DNA of 43,613 nt, taken from positions 1-43,613 of the forward strand of contig CAMBQP010000018.1 in assembly GCA_945869955.1 (NCBI GenBank). The letters are read 5' to 3'. Shown here in pieces: positions 12,771 through 42,029 of the stretch (position 1 is the stretch's first letter; every line of letters begins with the position of its first letter). The position numbers and the translations under genes are program-made. The stretch comes from Schlesneria paludicola DSM 18645 (GTDB lineage Bacteria; Planctomycetota; Planctomycetia; Planctomycetales; Planctomycetaceae). The notes under the pieces were generated by a model that did not search any database, had not been told where the DNA came from, and saw only the letters and a list, made by a program, of their open reading frames with translations.

Positions 12771-13526
12771 TTAACAGATCAGCATTTGTTCGAGCGGAGG
12801 CCAGTCGGTCCCCAGGGCGTCACGCTGCAATCGTGTCAACTGCTCGATCCCTCGCGCGGCGAGGTCGAGCTGTTGATTCAACAGCTCACGGGAAAAGGGC
12901 TTTCCTTCCGCAGTCCCCTGCACCTCGATGAATGCCCCCGTACCACTCATCACCACATTCAGATCGACTTCCGCTGTACTGTCTTCGATGTAATCCAGGT
13001 CGAGGACCGGTGTCCCCTGGACGACCCCCACACTCACGGCAGCAATACTTCGCTCGATCACCAGGCGATCGGCAGGAAGCTCGTGACGAATCGATGCGAT
13101 GGCATCACACAACGCGATAAACCCGCCGGTGATACTGAGGGTCCGCGTCCCGCCGTCGGCTTCGAGCACGTCACAATCGATGGCGATCGTTCGTGCCCCC
13201 AACGCCTGGAAATTGACTGCGGCACGCAGGCTGCGGCCGATCAGGCGCTGAATCTCGCTCGAACGTCCGTCGAGTTTTTCTCGTTCGCGTCGTTTTCGGG
13301 GCGAGGTACTGCCGGGCAACATCGAGTATTCTGCCGTGAGCCAACCCGAGACGGTCGCAGGATCTGCTGCGGCTTTCCAGGGGGGGAGTGAGCTCTCGAT
13401 GCTGGCCGTACAGAGCACGGTCGTGCGACCGGCCTGAATCAGTACGCTTCCCGGTGCGGCACCGGTGAAATGTCGTTGCACGCGAATCGGCCGTAAGTCG
13501 TGGGGCTGTCGTTGATCGTGTCGCAT
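12771..13526 (-). CDS. rph: Ribonuclease PH
   Basis: The start at 13526 ([14 protein letters not shown]) matches the family N terminus; the frame remains open to 13595 but that extension is unlike the family. The protein of 251 residues is normal length. Recognisable parts are [80 protein letters not shown] and the C-terminal [21 protein letters not shown]. RNase PH is a phosphorolytic 3'-5' exoribonuclease that trims the 3' ends of tRNA precursors, as a hexamer in the cytoplasm. The phosphate-binding GGTRT motif is intact, so it should be active. Confidence 0.97.
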
Positions 13527-13704
13527 GCTTTTCTCGAAGATTCCGTAAATGGAAACAGGGAAAGGATCGTAACCGGGAAAAAAAAGGATCGCCAACGTTT
13601 GCGTCTGGCGCGGACAACAAACTGCCGTCGTGAGAATGCTCTCGTGAGTGTGGCGTCAGTCACGCGAATTCGGTCATCGCTCAAATTCTCGCAATCACCA
13701 CCCA

Positions 13705-16026
13705 TCATTCGACAAAGAGAAACTCGTTCGCGTTCAAGAGGGCATGACAGAGATCCGAAATCGCTGCGTCACTCGCCTCGAGGCTCGCCTCTGGCGATGA
13801 CGAGGGACTCTTCTCAGCAGCGTGGGCTGACGTGTGAGTAATCACCTGCTGTTGTGCCCGGATAAACGTCAGGGCACTCGCAACTTCTGTATCGGTTGCC
13901 GGACGGCCAAAACTGGTTTGCCAAGCGCGCTGAATCACGGCAGCGGGGTCCGCGGAGTTCGCTTCCCGCTGGGCTCGCTGGCCCAATTGTTGTGCGGCGC
14001 GCAACACAATCCGGTTATTCAGCAACATCAGTGCCTGCGGGGCAATCGTGGTTCGCGTTCGGCTACCACAAGCCTCGTGCATATCCGGAAAATCAAAGGC
14101 GGCCATCATCGGATAGGGCAAATTTCGCTTGGCAAAAATGTAAACCGACCGCCGCACCTGCTCGGCCGGTTCGCTCACTTTCCATTCGTAACTGCTGAAA
14201 TTTGGCGGCAATTCCGGACGCGTACCGGGACCATACATCGAATCATTCAACTGACCCGAGGCCATCAGCCACGCATCTCGAATCCGTTCCGACGACAGAC
14301 GCTGACGCGGAAAATACGAATACGCCGGAGCATCGCCCCACGCTGTGGCCAAAATCTCACCCGTGGCAGGCTCGCTTCGATCCGTTTGAGACCCCTGCCG
14401 ATACGTCGCTGAGTGGACGATCTGACGATGCAGCAACTTCGACCCGAACCCGCGTGCCATGAATTCACTCGTCAGCCAGTCCAGCAGTTCCGGGTGAGTC
14501 GGCAGTGGTGTCTGCGTCCCAAAGTCATTCGCGTTCGAGACCAAACCCCGCCCAAAATGACCCTGCCACAGCCGGTTCACCCACACGCGATGCGTCAGGG
14601 GATGATCCGACGACGCCAGCCATCGCGCCAGCTCAGAACGTCGTCCCGAGGAACGGTCCGAGGGGGGTAAAATCACCGGGGGTGTTGAAGTTGATCCGCG
14701 ACGCAAAATGACCGGAAAGTCGGGTTCGAGGACCTCTCGTGGTTTGTCGTAGCTTCCCGAATCCAACCGACAGGTGATGGGAGGGGTATTCGTCAGTTCC
14801 GCAACCGCCATGACACTCGCTTCCCGGCTCGGCTGTGGCCGCCGACCTTTGGCTTCCGCCAGCAGTGCCAGCACTTCGTCGCGGCGCACTTTCGCGGCGT
14901 CCTCCAGATGCTTGGAAATCTCGTCCTCTTTCACTCCCATCTGCCGGACAGTCCAGAACGCCAGTTGCCGCTGCATCGTCGTCCGATCTTCTGCAGGAGT
15001 ATCGAGCGCTTGCAGCACCTCGAACGGAAACTTCATCCGACGATCACCCTGCATCTTGGTTCGTGCGGGTTGCTCCAACGCGTTCAGTTCGTGCCGCAGT
15101 GAGGCTGTTTCCGCCAGCCACTGACGCTCGGCCCGGCGGTAGTCCTCGAGTTGTGACAAGGTCCCCACCGGGACTTTGTCTTCCAGGACGATCCCGGAAA
15201 AAAAGGCTTGTAGCTGGTAAAAGTCGGTCTGCAGCAGCGGGTCAAATTTGTGATCGTGACACTGGGCACAGCCGATCGACAGCCCCAGAAACACCGCACC
15301 GACATTTCCGGTCAGGTCGTCCAGCGAAGTTTGTCGGGCCAGCAAAATGTTGGAAGCATTGCTTTCATCGGGCCACATCCGGCAGTACCCGGTTGCAGCC
15401 AGCGATTCGACATCGTCGGGAAATAATTCATCCCCCGCGATCTGATCCAGCATGAACCGATCAAACGGCAGATCCCGGTTATAAGCGCGAATCACATAGT
15501 CGCGGTAGGTATACGCGGTTGGGCGGAGCGGATCCTCTTTGAATCCCGCCGTCTCGGCAAATCGGACCACATCGAGCCAGTTGCGTCCCCAAGCCTCGCC
15601 ATAATGAGGATGACTGAGCAACCGATCGGTGAGACGTTCGTAGGCATCGGGGGATGTATCCGCAAGAAACGCCGCCACCTCGTCCGGTGTCGGTGGTAAA
15701 CCTGTGAGGTCGAAGGTGACTCGTCGCACTAACGTCAATCGGTCCGCAGGTGCCGTAAACGCATGCGAACTTGACTGTAGCTTCGCCAGAATAAACGCAT
15801 CGATCGGATTTTGCAGGCCCGCGACGCCAGAGAAATCCCCCCCCCGCACGCCATCCGGTATCGAACCACGTTGAACGGACTGAAAAGCCCAATGCTTCGA
15901 GCCGGATTTCGGATCACTCGTGTTCGGACCCGTGTCAGACGCGGTGACGGTTCCGCCGTAAACCAGCAATCCCGCTACGATCAGGCAGAACAAACCCTGC
16001 CAACTCCAGGCCGCTCGATGACGCAT
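13705..16026 (-). CDS. DUF1549/DUF1553 planctomycete secreted protein
   Basis: The 773-residue protein has a signal peptide (WQGLFCLIVAGLLVYGGTVTAS). The DUF1549 domain (about 65-285) includes RVTFDLTGLPPTPDEVAAFL, WGRNWLDVVRFAETAGF and the CxxCH motif SIGCAQCHDHKFDPLLQTDFYQL. A linker with a coiled-coil-like Glu/Arg-rich stretch follows. The DUF1553 domain (about 455-745) includes RSELARWLASSDHPLTHRVWVNRLWQGHFGRGLV and EACGSRTRTTIAPQALMLLNNRIV. No PSCyt1 cytochrome domain precedes it. Like the other copy at 9475-11088 it is predicted to be exported; substrate and redox role are unknown. Here there is no DUF1501 partner next door, which is less common. Confidence 0.95.
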   Translation of the reverse strand: MRHRAAWSWQGLFCLIVAGLLVYGGTVTASDTGPNTSDPKSGSKHWAFQSVQRGSIPDGVRGGDFSGVAGLQNPIDAFILAKLQSSSHAFTAPADRLTLVRRVTFDLTGLPPTPDEVAAFLADTSPDAYERLTDRLLSHPHYGEAWGRNWLDVVRFAETAGFKEDPLRPTAYTYRDYVIRAYNRDLPFDRFMLDQIAGDELFPDDVESLAATGYCRMWPDESNASNILLARQTSLDDLTGNVGAVFLGLSIGCAQCHDHKFDPLLQTDFYQLQAFFSGIVLEDKVPVGTLSQLEDYRRAERQWLAETASLRHELNALEQPARTKMQGDRRMKFPFEVLQALDTPAEDRTTMQRQLAFWTVRQMGVKEDEISKHLEDAAKVRRDEVLALLAEAKGRRPQPSREASVMAVAELTNTPPITCRLDSGSYDKPREVLEPDFPVILRRGSTSTPPVILPPSDRSSGRRSELARWLASSDHPLTHRVWVNRLWQGHFGRGLVSNANDFGTQTPLPTHPELLDWLTSEFMARGFGSKLLHRQIVHSATYRQGSQTDRSEPATGEILATAWGDAPAYSYFPRQRLSSERIRDAWLMASGQLNDSMYGPGTRPELPPNFSSYEWKVSEPAEQVRRSVYIFAKRNLPYPMMAAFDFPDMHEACGSRTRTTIAPQALMLLNNRIVLRAAQQLGQRAQREANSADPAAVIQRAWQTSFGRPATDTEVASALTFIRAQQQVITHTSAHAAEKSPSSSPEASLEASDAAISDLCHALLNANEFLFVE

Positions 16027-36940: not shown

Positions 36941-37330
36941 GGAAGTCCCTCATCTCTCTGCTGCCATGGAAGCTTGTCTGGTGATCCCCTTTGTAGCCAT
37001 CGATTGTTGTCCCTGAGAACGGGAAAACCACCCAGTCTTTCATCGCAGGTCACGATCAGGACTTAGTCTACATTAAACGACGCCCAAGTGTGATGTCGTC
37101 CCGTTTTTCTCACCCGGTTTTTCGATCGAAATTTGCTCGAATTGGAAATGGGGCGACGTTTTCAGGAATTGGGGTCTGTAGCACGGAGAGTGCGGAATAG
37201 AGTTGCTGTTGTGACCGAAAACAAGGCGCGTCGTTAATCGTCAACTTCCCGTAGACGCAATCGCGCTTTTCCGCTACGAAACCAATGCGGGATCCGGATG
37301 GTATTTTTGTCGTTTTATCGAAGGAATTCT
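36941..37330. other. Divergent intergenic region
   Basis: These 390 bp separate the ABC exporter (minus) from the outer-membrane lipoprotein gene (plus) and should hold both promoters. I see no repeat or strong hairpin. AAGGA at 37321-37325 is the ribosome site for the GTG start at 37331. Confidence 0.55.
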
Positions 37331-38266
37331 GTGCGTTCGCTCTGCTGTTTTGTGAGTCTGGGGTGGCTCGCAGTCATCGGCTGCGCCATCCCCGAAGCCA
37401 CGCGAGGCAGACAACCGCTTGCTTCGGCCGTGATTCGAGGCGAGAGTGACGGATTGGTTGATCTCGAATCGGCCGCACATTCACGACAACGAACGGATTC
37501 GGACAAGCATGGTCGAACGGCCATCGCGAAAACGACCCACAAACACCATCGTTCACACTGTGCAACGTGTAACCAATCACCCTGTTCCTGTCAGGGATCG
37601 ACGGAGGGGAATCTTTTCGGGCAAATCTTTTGGGGATTTTTTGCCACTCCGTTTGCCGTCCCTTCGTTTCTGCTGCACGATGATCACGATCATTTCGCCG
37701 AATTTCCGGATTATCCCTATGCGGATGATCTCCCCGGATCGCTATTGATTGACAGCTCGTTCAAAGGGAAAACACAAACTTGGACCGGCAACATCCAAGC
37801 CGTTGCCATCCCCAGCTCTCATGAACTCGAACGTTTCGGTGGTCGGCTGCTACTCGAAAACAGCGATCGAATTGGATTGGATACCGAAACCAACTACTGG
37901 TTGAGCACCGGTTCGCAAGCGGGACCTCGTGACGCATGGACCGGGGATTTCAATCTGACGTACCGATTTGCCGAGAGTGAACAGATTCAACTCCGCGCCG
38001 GGATCGGGGTGAACTGGCTCGCCGATCAGATCCGCCCCGAGTTTGGCGTCAATTTTACCTACGGCATCGATTGGTTCCCACGCCGCCCCTGGACAATCTC
38101 GTCCATCATCGACGTCGGTTCGCTGGGGAGTGCGATGCTGTTTCACAATCGGAGTACGATCGGTGTGATGCTCGGTCCGACAGAACTCCTCGTCGGCTAT
38201 GATTACTTCCAACTGGGGAATGCCCGCTTCCAAGGTCCCGTCGCCGGGATTGGATATCGTTTCTAG
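37331..38266 (+). CDS. Putative outer-membrane beta-barrel lipoprotein
   Basis: The start is a GTG at 37331 with AAGGA 5 bp before it, giving 311 residues; the open frame reaches back to 37298. The N terminus (VRSLCCFVSLGWLAVIGC) is a lipoprotein signal with lipobox VIGC. A His/Cys-rich cluster (HKHHRSHCATCNQSPCSC, about 80-97) could bind metal. The C-terminal 190 residues alternate in strand-like fashion (WTGDFNLTYRF, IQLRAGIGVNWL, FGVNFTYGIDWFPRR, LLVGYDYFQLG) and end in GIGYRF, with the terminal Phe common in outer-membrane barrels. Function is unknown. It is the gene before gvpA, same strand, but 346 bp apart with a candidate promoter between. Confidence 0.72.
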   Translation: MRSLCCFVSLGWLAVIGCAIPEATRGRQPLASAVIRGESDGLVDLESAAHSRQRTDSDKHGRTAIAKTTHKHHRSHCATCNQSPCSCQGSTEGNLFGQIFWGFFATPFAVPSFLLHDDHDHFAEFPDYPYADDLPGSLLIDSSFKGKTQTWTGNIQAVAIPSSHELERFGGRLLLENSDRIGLDTETNYWLSTGSQAGPRDAWTGDFNLTYRFAESEQIQLRAGIGVNWLADQIRPEFGVNFTYGIDWFPRRPWTISSIIDVGSLGSAMLFHNRSTIGVMLGPTELLVGYDYFQLGNARFQGPVAGIGYRF

Positions 38267-38503: not shown

Positions 38504-38519
38504 TGGCACGAGGTTCGCT
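38504..38519 (+). promoter_or_regulatory. Candidate sigma-54 (-24/-12) promoter of gvpA
   Basis: TGGCACGAGGTTCGCT matches the TGGCACR-N4-TTGCW consensus at all fixed positions but one (TCGCT for TTGCT), with the GG and GC dinucleotides at the correct 12-bp spacing. A start point near 38530 would give a leader of about 80 nt. No activator site or enhancer-binding protein gene is seen in the window, so this is a motif-level call. Confidence 0.4.
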
Positions 38520-38586: not shown

Positions 38587-38612
38587 AGTGGTTTTCCTGA
38601 AGGAGTTTTCTC

Positions 38613-38831
38613 ATGGCCAAAGTAATGAAGTCGACCGACAGTTCCAGCCTCGCTGAAGTTGTGGACCGCATCCTGGACAAAGGTATCGTTATCGATGCAT
38701 GGGTCAAGGTTTCGTTGGTCGGTATCGAACTGCTGTCAGTCGAAGCACGAGTCGTCATCGCTTCGGTAGAAACCTACCTGAAGTACGCCGAAGCCATCGG
38801 GCTGACCGCCTCGGCCGCAGCACCCGCCTAA
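38613..38831 (+). CDS. gvpA: Gas vesicle structural protein GvpA
   Basis: The 72-residue protein is an essentially canonical GvpA. After a variable start (MAKVMKSTD) come [19 protein letters not shown] (helix 1 and turn), [20 protein letters not shown] (the two beta strands that face the gas space, with helix 2) and [19 protein letters not shown]. From memory it is very close to cyanobacterial GvpA in length and core residues. GvpA polymerises into the ribbed gas-filled shell giving buoyancy. AAGGAG lies 7 nt upstream; a strong hairpin follows. The flanking genes are unrelated, and no gvpC, F, G, J, K, L, N or V is in the window, so it stands alone. Codons look optimised (CTG, GTC, ATC, AAG), fitting high expression. 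Confidence 0.97.
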
Positions 38832-38863
38832 TCGTACCCTGAAGTACGTTGGTCTCGACTTTT

Positions 38864-38896
38864 CGGTGGAGCCTGTTCGCTGGGCAGGCTCCACCG
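38864..38896 (+). terminator. Terminator-like hairpin after gvpA
   Basis: CGGTGGAGCCTG (38864-38875) and CAGGCTCCACCG (38885-38896) form a perfect 12-bp stem with a 9-nt loop, 32 bp past the gvpA stop. No U-tract follows. A smaller CGTAC/GTACG stem lies just before it. Together they suggest a single-gene, stable transcript. Confidence 0.7.
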
Positions 38897-38999
38897 ATGA
38901 GTGATCTCTCGTTCAAGTGCATTCTCTGCGTAAACAACCGAGTCGAACTTGCGAGTTTCACGAGTGGGTTGCTCGAAGAATGGACTCATATTCAGGGTT

Positions 39000-40205
39000 T
39001 TACTTGCGCCCGAGTCTCCGATTCAGGCCTTGGCTCATGTGGGTGTCACCACAATCCTGGAAGAAGTCGGCAAGCTCGATCAGCGCGGTAGGATTCACCG
39101 ATTCCGCTGCGGTCAGGTTCCTTAACTTCCGCCGAATCTCTTGGGCTCGATCGACCAATTGTGTCAGGCGTTCAACTTCCGTTCGATTGTTGCGACGGCG
39201 TTCGACCGCTGCCAAACGAATCATGGTTGTCCAATCGACGGGATGTCGCCTGAGTCCCTCGCCGTACGCGGCAACTGCGTCATCCCATTCATTATGGGAT
39301 TCATGCACCCAACCTTTCATTCTCCAGAAACGGCTATCCTGTTTGGCTGTTGTGGGGGCCTGTAACAGCAAAGCTGTGACCCCGTCGATATCTCCGGCGT
39401 CAAATCGTTCTTCGGCCTGAAACGCTAACAGTTCCAGATTTTTCGGAAATCGCTCGCGGAGCTGGTTGACCCGTTCCCGTTTGGCAGGTCCCAGCGAGGT
39501 GCGAACCTCGGCTTCAGTACGAGCAAAGAGATCGATCTCTTGTGAATCGGTCTTGGGGTCTGGCAATTGCAGGATGCTCGCCACCAGAAATAGTTCCTCG
39601 TCCGGGGAACTTTTCAGCCACCGTTCATTCAAATCGATCCCCTCTTTCGATCGCAGGGTGTACAGCAGAAAGGCATAGGCGTAGGCTTCGCGTGGTTCGC
39701 TTTGCGTCTCGACACCCTGCTGGATCTGTCGAAGCAATTTTTCTCGCTGCAGGGTGGCCGCATAGAATCCGATCAATTGCTGTCGTGCCCCGGCGGCACG
39801 GGGATCGATCTGCAAAATCCGCTCACAGGCGGCCGCTCCTTTCAACGGATTGTTCAGACGAGTGAAGGCCAGTTTTGAGACCTCAATCAGAGCGGGAACG
39901 ACCTGCGGATCGCTGTCAGGGACTTGCCAGAACGAGGCCAGGGCCTGTTCCCAATCCTGCCGTCCGCTTGCCGCCTGACCCCGGTACATCCAGGCTTCTC
40001 CATTTTCGGGCTCCCAGGCGGTCCAGCGATCGGCCAGTCTTTGGAGTTCATTCCAGCGACGTTCACTTTTCGCCGCACCGCAGGTCTCAGCAAGATCGGC
40101 TCGCCGGAGCTCAGACCAGATCGGGTAGACAAACGGAGCCGCCACAGCCGTGATCAAGATCAGGCTCGCGACACAGACGAGAACAATTCGTCGATTCATG
40201 AACAT
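39000..40205 (-). CDS. TPR-repeat protein with N-terminal membrane anchor
   Basis: The 401-residue protein starts MFMNRRIVLVCVASLILITAVAAPFVYPIW, a signal-anchor. Tetratricopeptide-like helix pairs follow: NGEAWMYRGQAASGRQDWEQALASFWQV, GAAACERILQIDPRAAGARQQLIGFYA and FWRMKGWVHESHNEWDDAVAAYGEGLRRHPVDW. It is therefore a protein-interaction scaffold facing away from the cytoplasm. It starts 39 bp after the stop of the FG-GAP/ASPIC lipoprotein gene on the same strand; this pairing of TPR and FG-GAP/UnbV genes is common in planctomycetes, and they probably work together. No enzyme motif is seen. Confidence 0.88.
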   Translation of the reverse strand: MFMNRRIVLVCVASLILITAVAAPFVYPIWSELRRADLAETCGAAKSERRWNELQRLADRWTAWEPENGEAWMYRGQAASGRQDWEQALASFWQVPDSDPQVVPALIEVSKLAFTRLNNPLKGAAACERILQIDPRAAGARQQLIGFYAATLQREKLLRQIQQGVETQSEPREAYAYAFLLYTLRSKEGIDLNERWLKSSPDEELFLVASILQLPDPKTDSQEIDLFARTEAEVRTSLGPAKRERVNQLRERFPKNLELLAFQAEERFDAGDIDGVTALLLQAPTTAKQDSRFWRMKGWVHESHNEWDDAVAAYGEGLRRHPVDWTTMIRLAAVERRRNNRTEVERLTQLVDRAQEIRRKLRNLTAAESVNPTALIELADFFQDCGDTHMSQGLNRRLGRK

Positions 40206-40244: not shown

Positions 40245-42029
40245 TTAATCCTGAGAGATCTGCAGAATCTGGTCTGCAGCCACATTCTGTAGCGTCTGTT
40301 CCGCCCCCGATGGCCAATGAATCGTCAGGGTGTCCAGTCTCGTATTCTCGCCCAGCCCCCAGTGGACGCGGGGATCGCTCGAAGAGAGATAGCTTGAAGC
40401 GGGGGAAACGTCACTAATCCAGACTTGATCACCGCGACGGCCCACCAGTCGCGCACCGTAGGCAAACCGATTGGGGGCCTTGCCGCGCAGGTCCAGTTTC
40501 AGCCAATGCGATGTCGTCTCGGTACGATTCTGCAGCAACATGGCAGGCCCCTCAAAATCGACTGCCAATAAATCAACGCGGCCATCATTATCAAAATCGA
40601 CGGTGGCGGAACCTCGTCCGACCATCGGTCGCTGAATCTCTGCCCTTTGCTTCGGCACAATATCAATCAGCTTCTGGCCCCGATCATTCCAGTACAGCGA
40701 CATCGGCTGACGGAAAGGGACACCCGGGCCGTGGATTTCTGCCGAGTTGTCGTACACGTGTCCATTCACAAAAAACAGATCTAGCCAGCCATCATTTTCA
40801 AAGTCGACCCATTTGGCACCGAACCCCAGTCGGTTTTTCGAGCTGCGAGCCAGATCGGTCCGTTTGGCACAATCCACGAATAACCGATTGCCGACACTTT
40901 GAAAGATCACGAACGAATCACCAAACCAGTTTGTCACCGCCAGGTCCAGCCTCCCATCACGGTCAAAGTCGCCCCAGTCCGCTCCCATCGCCGAGACCGC
41001 TCCACCGTTGTCCGAGGTGGCGACCCCTGCGACTGCCGCGATATTCTCGAAATGCCCTGTCCCCTGATTGTACAGCAGATCGGCTACCACACCGTCATTG
41101 CCGATATAAAAATCGATCCGGCCATCATCGTCGAGGTCCGTAAAAGCCAGCACCAATCCGACACCATGGGTCTGTTGCATCCCCTGCTCCGAGGGGATCA
41201 GCTGCAGTGACTTTCCGGCCATGTTTTTCCAAATTTGACCTCGTTCAGGGAGATAGGTTTTCGGTCCGCAGCCGGATTTGACTCCTGGAGTATACTCGCA
41301 GTATTTCTGGGTTTCCGGACCGAAAATGACATAGTTCAAGATCACCAGATCCAGCCAGCCATCACCATCAAGATCCATGAATCCCGAACTGGCGCCCCAA
41401 TACCCCTGATTGGTGGGGTCGAGTCCCATGGCCTGCGTCACATCCTGAAATTGCTGACCACGCTGATTTTTCCAGAGGGCCAGTTGGTGATATCCCGTTA
41501 CGACCAGATCCAGCAGTCCATCACCATCGAAGTCGCCGATCGAACAGCCGGTCCAGCGGCCCGCGAGGCTTTTCAAACCACTTTGTTCGGTGACATTGGT
41601 AAAATGGTTCCCACCGTCATTGTGAAACAAAATCGGATGAGGCGTCGCCACCAGCAATACGTCTTGCCAGCCGTCGTTGTCGTAGTCAAAGGCTGCGCAA
41701 CCGGCACCAAACGCATCGAGTGCCGTCATGGGCCGTGGTTGCTCAGGCCAGTGATGCTGCAGGCCCCATTCCTCAGCGACATCAACAAACTGAATCTCAG
41801 TCGGAGCGGTGATCTCGACCCGATGCGGATCGCGATGCGATTTGAGTGCCGGAAATGCCAGTCCCGTCGAATCGTCTGGAGGCGATTGTACTGCGGACGA
41901 TGGGGAAGTGTGCGAGAAATCTTGGGTTGTTGTCGTTGATCCGGCATCACGACATCCCAAGACGAACAGCAACATCGCCAGGCCCCGTAATGGCCGGAAA
42001 TGCGAGGCAGATAAGAATGTCGAGATCAT
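40245..42029 (-). CDS. Lipoprotein with FG-GAP/VCBS repeats and ASPIC/UnbV domain (CRTAC1-like)
   Basis: The 594-residue protein has a lipoprotein signal (LRGLAMLLFVLGC, lipobox VLGC at about 23-26). FG-GAP repeats run from about 80 to 490: FDYDNDGWQDVLLV, GDFDGDGLLDLVVT, MDLDGDGWLDLVIL, TDLDDDGRIDFYIG, GDFDRDGRLDLAVT, VDFENDGWLDLFFV and VDFDNDGRVDLLAV, each with calcium-binding Asp loops. The C-terminal 100 residues (HWLKLDLRGKAPNRFAYGARLVG..., SSYLSSSDPRVHWGLG, LTIHWPSGAEQTL) match the ASPIC/UnbV domain. It probably sits on the outer membrane or in the periplasm; its ligand is unknown. It is the first gene of a pair with the TPR gene. Confidence 0.94.
   Translation of the reverse strand: MISTFLSASHFRPLRGLAMLLFVLGCRDAGSTTTTQDFSHTSPSSAVQSPPDDSTGLAFPALKSHRDPHRVEITAPTEIQFVDVAEEWGLQHHWPEQPRPMTALDAFGAGCAAFDYDNDGWQDVLLVATPHPILFHNDGGNHFTNVTEQSGLKSLAGRWTGCSIGDFDGDGLLDLVVTGYHQLALWKNQRGQQFQDVTQAMGLDPTNQGYWGASSGFMDLDGDGWLDLVILNYVIFGPETQKYCEYTPGVKSGCGPKTYLPERGQIWKNMAGKSLQLIPSEQGMQQTHGVGLVLAFTDLDDDGRIDFYIGNDGVVADLLYNQGTGHFENIAAVAGVATSDNGGAVSAMGADWGDFDRDGRLDLAVTNWFGDSFVIFQSVGNRLFVDCAKRTDLARSSKNRLGFGAKWVDFENDGWLDLFFVNGHVYDNSAEIHGPGVPFRQPMSLYWNDRGQKLIDIVPKQRAEIQRPMVGRGSATVDFDNDGRVDLLAVDFEGPAMLLQNRTETTSHWLKLDLRGKAPNRFAYGARLVGRRGDQVWISDVSPASSYLSSSDPRVHWGLGENTRLDTLTIHWPSGAEQTLQNVAADQILQISQD

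Follow-up and report, generated by a model that had tools for sequence, protein, structure and literature searches.

The question raised by this locus is whether a gas-vesicle gene that stands alone on its contig still belongs to a gas-vesicle system and, if so, where its partners are. The window, i.e. the whole stretch of DNA that was analysed, is an entire contig (C18) of 43,613 bases. It comes from a genome (G000), a planctomycete judging by its related genomes, assembled to 6.25 Mb in 394 contigs, with a completeness of 94.8% and a contamination of 1.71%. A sequence-only reading of the window had described a solitary gvpA gene with a complete 72-residue product, its own ribosome site, hairpins on both sides and unrelated neighbours. 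It left two alternatives, namely a split locus with the other gvp genes elsewhere in the genome, or a GvpA that builds something else, and it suggested a transfer from cyanobacteria or an aquatic pool shared with them. The features around gvpA are the following.

37298..38266, plus strand: left neighbour of gvpA, 322 residues, no Pfam family, genus-native according to its same-genus matches
38504..38519, plus strand: promoter-like site of the sigma-54 (-24/-12) type, 11 of 12 consensus bases
38600..38605, plus strand: ribosome binding site AAGGAG, read from the sequence
38613..38831, plus strand: gvpA, 72 residues; the Pfam and NCBIfam models found no other GvpA-type gene in the genome
38863..38897, plus strand: strong hairpin with a 16-pair stem and no T-run, z -5.3 over the surrounding 94 bases
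39000..40205, minus strand: right neighbour, a TPR protein convergent with gvpA, 53% in the same-genus genome G011
40245..42029, minus strand: FG-GAP / ASPIC-UnbV protein by Pfam, with same-genus homologues

Translation gives a complete GvpA, and the family models agree with it: the protein scores 62.8 bits on PF00741 (cut-off 25) and 134.5 on the NCBIfam GvpA model NF006874 (cut-off 100), whereas it stays well below the cut-offs of the paralogue models, with 48.5 against 125 for halo GvpJ and 29.5 against 109 for halo GvpM. Judged by these scores, it is a GvpA shell protein. In a comparison made at the sequence level, residues 3-71 of the solved shell structure 8gbs align to residues 4-72 of the window protein, and residues 3-64 of 7r1c to residues 4-65. 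The AAGGAG motif is located 7 bases 5' of the ATG, so the complete gene and the ribosome site of the sequence-only reading are both confirmed. Its hairpins fared unevenly. Downstream, the folding energy of -42.9 kcal/mol for 38832-38925 was matched by none of 200 shuffles, and the hairpin in this region may possibly serve as a terminator or as an mRNA stabiliser. The upstream hairpin does not stand out from chance (z -0.6, equalled by 57 of 200 shuffles). An Rfam search returned one sub-threshold match only, which we ascribe to chance.

The solitary position of the gene and the unrelated neighbours were borne out as well. A phmmer search with 20 query proteins at E-values up to 1e-3 found no further gvp gene across the contig; the sole extra match, at 788-1447 and with 39 bits, was to a receiver domain of generic type. 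We note that the solitary status covers 38 kb to the left of gvpA and only 4.8 kb to the right, where the contig ends. The left neighbour, without a match in Pfam, has counterparts in 4 of 14 same-genus relatives (61% in G002, 60% in G006, also kept in G012 and G013). On the right, the TPR homologue of G011 adjoins an ASPIC gene just as in the window, and gvpA is absent there; the ASPIC-UnbV protein itself has homologues in G009 (71%) and G011 (66-69%). This protein is a member of a large paralogue set, with 32 matches in G000. Going by these homologues, both flanks of gvpA are genus-native. No single empty gvpA insertion site was found among the same-genus genomes, because the genomes that keep the left neighbour are not those that keep the right one, i.e. 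the left gene is in the four named above and the right pair in G011, with the ASPIC gene also in G009.

The partners are found on another contig. Besides the C18 gene, the genome has two PF00741 genes, both on contig C7, which makes three in all; in 14 control genomes the family was not found. On the GvpA model the two C7 proteins score 57.7 and 31.8 (cut-off 100), i.e. only the C18 copy passes and no second gvpA was found in the genome. From similarity and place, we take the two C7 proteins as GvpJ and GvpM/S type, although they reach no model cut-off for these types. The C7 genes run on a single strand in the order orf205, receiver domain, sigma-54 activator, Hsp20, CDC48, GvpL/F, GvpF, GvpG, double ArsA ATPase, small TPR-like protein, GvpM-type, GvpK and GvpJ-type. 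The GvpF/GvpL, GvpG, GvpK and J/M-type proteins, all on C7, are above the Pfam cut-offs; no GvpF/L genes were found in the genome beyond the two located here, and the GvpH match of the Hsp20 barely exceeds its cut-off. In other words, C7 is a gas-vesicle cluster without GvpA, and C18 has GvpA without a cluster. A complete cluster just outside the window, which according to the sequence-only reading would have made the locus ordinary, is not what was found: C18 ends 4.8 kb past gvpA, and it is C7 that holds the cluster.

The C7 cluster is flanked on its right by a phosphodiesterase gene, which has a 77% same-genus orthologue and, at E-values of at most 1e-60, matches in 6 of the 14 relatives of the genus. 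In the five of these six relatives that were inspected, the genes left of the cluster were not found beside the phosphodiesterase, and no empty cluster site was found among those five. Three proteins of the cluster have features of their own. The 205-residue orf205 (L007 19238-19855) stands at the cluster head and has no Pfam match, nor does its homologue in L014 have an NCBIfam match; it recurs in 9 loci of the first relative comparison and in 7 stretches of the planctomycete comparison, and it is possibly an unnamed gas-vesicle protein. The small TPR-like protein (L007 10410-10781), between ArsA and the GvpM-type gene, has a sub-threshold TPR match, and among the compared loci its only listed relative outside G000 is in the cluster of G042. 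GvpG (L007 12706-13236) has 176 residues and a long acidic tail rich in Asp and Glu.

The same gene order is seen in Desulfobacterota, Acidobacteria and planctomycetes, with gvpA inside the cluster, between GvpL/F and GvpF. On C7, GvpL/F (L007 14094-14915) and GvpF (13297-14097) share four bases, and therefore the whole gvpA-containing segment is absent there. GvpN follows gvpA in the two clusters that were read closely (L014 and L027), and the two genes occur together in 20 of 37 planctomycete stretches; among the remaining 17 are fragmentary contigs, divergent clusters and both halves of the split genome G704 described below. In a CDC48 tree of 35 rows, C7 falls into a planctomycete clade (98/96) with eight relatives, i.e. 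five Isosphaeraceae-type genomes (G117, G127, G146, G202 and G206), the Phycisphaerales locus L027, and the fragmentary G512 and G142. The Isosphaeraceae-type clusters and L027 have the same order as C7, but unlike G000 they have contiguous gvpA, GvpN and GvpF. Their GvpA proteins are 94-97% identical to the window GvpA in the five genomes and only 86% identical in L027. Since all eight relatives of the clade carry gvpA on their CDC48 stretch, the split is most simply regarded as derived in the G000 lineage.

We consider it rather probable that C18 gvpA and the C7 cluster are a real split gas-vesicle locus, the two parts of which would act in trans and give vesicles that are probably small. 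For such a locus a gas-vesicle function is likely, as a prediction. The gvpA-containing middle segment would have been lost from C7, and gvpA would have moved, or stayed, elsewhere with a sigma-54 promoter of its own. An activator on C7 that resembles GvrA of Serratia would then switch on gvpA in trans together with RpoN, and nucleation and assembly of the shell would fall to the chaperones and the minor A-J-M proteins of C7. Of the two alternatives left by the sequence-only reading, the split locus is thus the one that agrees with the gvp genes on C7, and a structure of another kind is not needed. A bolder version is that G000 has a natural GvpN-free split regulon, in which a stand-alone sigma-54 shell gene is controlled in trans by an activator encoded with the assembly chaperones at another locus, the shell dosage is uncoupled from the assembly factors and vesicles form without GvpN; this version we put forward only tentatively.

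The proposed promoter, TGGCACGAGGTTCGCT (TGGCACG-AGGT-TCGCT), agrees with the sigma-54 consensus TGGCACGNNNNTTGCW at 11 of its 12 specified positions and ends 93 bases before the gvpA ATG. It is the only site in the window, with both strands scanned, that scores at least 11. The pattern TGGCACGNNNNTYGCW, in which the Y was chosen after the site had been seen, has two exact matches in the 6.25 Mb genome, one of them before gvpA. The other lies before three Hsp20 genes (L112 2932-4736, contig C177). With at most one mismatch the genome contains 141 sites, hardly above the 115 of a reversed control, so the promoter call rests on one good match and on its place. Among 30 relatives, hand-picked from the at least 55 loci of the genome scan, 12 have a site of at least 10/12 within 450 bases upstream of gvpA, including none of the five cyanobacteria; the background for such sites is 70 of 915,327 positions. 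In a wider set, such sites within 350 bases were found at 10 of 16 loci with an NtrC-like gene versus 8 of 33 without one (Fisher p 0.011, not corrected for relatedness). This table comprises 49 loci of at least 9 kb, the window excluded; 61 loci had enough upstream DNA, and 6 more, with a short upstream, were dropped. On the cluster strand of C7, the best sigma-54 site (10/12, at L007 4144) is 5.3 kb beyond the cluster, and scores within the cluster do not exceed 9. A shared activator-binding (enhancer) repeat upstream of gvpA was also considered and rejected, as the 8-mers and dyads that some relatives have in common, for example CTATGGAA in 5 of 13 loci, are absent from the window copy.

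The genome has rpoN, on contig C33. Counterparts of the three parts of a Serratia-type regulation can thus be named, i.e. an NtrC-like activator, a sigma-54-like site before gvpA, and RpoN, but the receiver and AAA+ domains of the activator are split over two frames. According to the Serratia report, gvpA1 is driven by a sigma-54 promoter and the NtrC-like GvrA (PMC4982088). Because of this precedent and the sigma-54/NtrC evidence given above, we predict that the C18 gvpA is controlled in trans by the activator of C7.

Some components were not found. The best GvpN candidate of a model search in the 94.8% complete assembly reaches 32.1 bits versus a cut-off of 266.8; GvpN of two relatives scores 333.5 and 349 on the same model. 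Neither a third GvpF/L nor counterparts of the Serratia GvrB/C were found in G000, and the histidine kinase or further regulator that is near gvpA in some relatives is not among the C7 genes scanned. Two proteins from the GvpC position of relatives, themselves without a family match above the cut-off, gave no match on C18 or C7:1-40000. Among the accessory proteins that the sequence-only reading expected for a gas-vesicle system, GvpF/L, GvpG, GvpK and a GvpJ-type protein were thus located on C7 and GvpN was not. In Serratia, as the same report describes, gvpN mutants form small bicones and do not float, three GvpF/L are required, and vesicles are absent from mutants in gvpF3 or gvrB, so that each of these two genes is required (PMC4982088). 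Since no GvpN was found, the vesicles of G000, if made, would likely be small.

The main rival to a functional split locus is a decaying or cryptic system, in which the middle segment with gvpA, gvpN, a gvpC-like gene and a third gvpF was lost, and the remnants, including the displaced gvpA, make no vesicles. The missing GvpN and the missing counterparts of Serratia-essential genes speak for it, and so does the cluster of S. coelicolor, which lacks gvpN and is described in the Serratia report as cryptic, with no vesicles seen (PMC4982088). PF00741 was found in none of 14 same-genus and 22 other same-family relatives, which is also in line with decay. The NtrC-like regulator (L007 17726-19176) has its receiver and AAA+ activator domains in two separate frames, whereas all but one of the 13 best relatives have them fused. 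Finally, the 969-base database contig P0157 encodes the identical 72 GvpA residues but has a tyrosine where the window gvpA has its stop; this copy either extends by 23 residues or contains a sequence error. On the other hand, gvpA and the recognised gvp frames of C7 are open and exceed their family cut-offs, the changes in gvpA are mainly synonymous, and a promoter-like site and a ribosome site are present before the gene. The regulator, too, occurs in the protein database both as a 362-residue form (99%) and as an intact 483-residue form (96% identical). Taking these points together, we regard decay as unlikely.

Still less probable, in our view, is an artefact of assembly or binning, i.e. 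that gvpA and the C7 cluster are truly neighbours, that either contig is of foreign origin, or that a multi-copy gvpA was collapsed. The fragmentation into 394 contigs, the contamination of 1.71% and the contig end 4.8 kb from gvpA would fit such an artefact. There is also a precedent in an actinobacterial co-assembly, where the gvp genes were scattered over three contigs although they lay together on a single contig in one single-cell assembly (PMC7325909). However, the C7 sequence is continuous through the GvpL-GvpF junction, and because of the four-base overlap no gvpA fits between these genes. Even if the contigs were abutted most closely, 18,218 bases would still part gvpA from the cluster. 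The neighbours on both contigs are genus-native, the GC contents are alike (0.51-0.59 in the window versus 0.53-0.57 in L007), and P0157 has the same 3' flank of gvpA as the window. A misjoin is possible and not favoured. That the window GvpA builds something other than gas vesicles is very improbable: gvpA is alone in its neighbourhood and GvpN was not found, but GvpF, GvpG, GvpK and GvpJ-/GvpM-type genes are in the same genome, and the GvpA sequence is close both to the shell proteins of known structure, 8gbs and 7r1c, and to the GvpA of G042 (68 of 72 residues identical), a member of planctomycete family f2 that we take to be the vesicle-bearing Isosphaera pallida. Gas vesicles are present in Isosphaera pallida cells (PMC3072084).

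The cyanobacterial source proposed by the sequence-only reading is not supported. Among the matches listed in the scan (at least 55 loci), the six best by E-value are 93-97% identical to the window GvpA. Two of them are Gammaproteobacteria, two are Acidobacteriota records, and the other two are a Desulfobacterales and a 'Deltaproteobacteria'. Cyanobacteria account for 14 of the listed loci, and these are at 78-88%. The nearest GvpA proteins among the genomes compared (96-97%) are planctomycete, proteobacterial, myxococcal and acidobacterial, and the copies of family f2, probably the Isosphaeraceae, are at 94-97%. Database proteins reach 99-100% identity. In a GvpA tree of 74 rows the window copy is outside the 13 cyanobacterial rows, which speaks against the cyanobacterial grouping, though the fork is weak (73/85). 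The AU test does not reject a tree in which the window copy is forced in with the cyanobacterial rows (p 0.12), given how little signal a protein of 72 residues contains. We have rejected a cyanobacterial transfer on the identity ranking and the tree, with this AU value noted. Nor is a recent transfer of gvpA from any source seen, since the DNA identity to the relatives compared is only 71-82% and the differences are mostly synonymous; in the comparison with L011, for instance, 27 of 64 codons have synonymous changes and 2 are changed otherwise.

Gas-vesicle genes are sparsely distributed around G000. The first survey turned up PF00741 in 2 of 59 genomes, the class survey in 9 of 397 and the phylum survey in 23 of 392, with G000 counted in each; the class and phylum surveys comprise 31 distinct positive genomes. 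Seven of the nine positives in the class survey carry three PF00741 genes together on a single contig, in a span of about 5 to 6 kb. The exceptions are G000, which is split, and G142, which has one PF00741 gene on an 8.3 kb contig together with other gvp genes.

The planctomycete genome G704 shows a similar split and is a second case of this kind. Its gvpA is mid-contig on its contig C10 (L162 9292-9600), with no other gvp gene within the 19 kb stretch, and the other gvp genes found are on its contig C17 (L163). Unlike G000, it retains GvpN, has no sigma-54 activator in the L162 and L163 stretches and has no good sigma-54 site before gvpA (best 8/12). Its GvpA is identical to that of the window at 61 of 72 residues. 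Five further planctomycete genomes with gvp genes on two contigs (G406, G512, G575, G605 and G675) were rejected as splits, as their genes are on small contigs or near contig ends and look like products of fragmentation.

Among the described systems, that of Serratia sp. ATCC 39006 offers the closest parallels discussed here. As in Serratia, the C7 cluster has an NtrC-like activator, an Hsp20 (GvpH-like) and then GvpF/L, a sigma-54-type site precedes gvpA, and the genome has three PF00741 proteins as well as GvpF, GvpG and GvpK; we infer the gene-by-gene correspondence with the Serratia names. The two gvp operons of Serratia are in one 16.6 kb locus (PMC4982088), whereas gvpA of G000 is on a separate contig and what is left of the two operons has been joined together. 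In addition, no GvpN, third GvpF/L or GvrB/C counterparts were found in G000. Double ArsA and Hsp20 genes have already been described in gvp clusters (PMC2963123).

The G000 arrangement is a real, uncommon form of a known system. In a review, gvp genes are said to be always clustered, and the AAA ATPase GvpN is listed as conserved in all gvp clusters (PMC9501494). Both G000 and G704 depart from the first statement. G000 also departs from the second, for which the one precedent known here is the cryptic cluster of S. coelicolor (PMC4982088). Judged by titles and the beginnings of abstracts, no solitary gvpA was found among the papers listed from the open-access literature. If the split locus is functional, gvpA can do without a physical link to its chaperones, and the genome would be both a natural test of the purpose of GvpN and a natural two-part system for tuning the shell dosage in gas-vesicle engineering. 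Annotation based on clusters can overlook organisms that make gas vesicles or label them as incomplete.

Additional gvpA-like genes away from clusters were seen in two other genomes, both of which also have clustered or tandem copies elsewhere. In G545 an extra gvpA-like pair (L164 8814 and 11200; 83 and 80 bits) is the only gvp content of a 19 kb stretch, and a Methylumidiphilus genome (G756) has a lone extra gvpA (L011 9938) and a tandem triple elsewhere.
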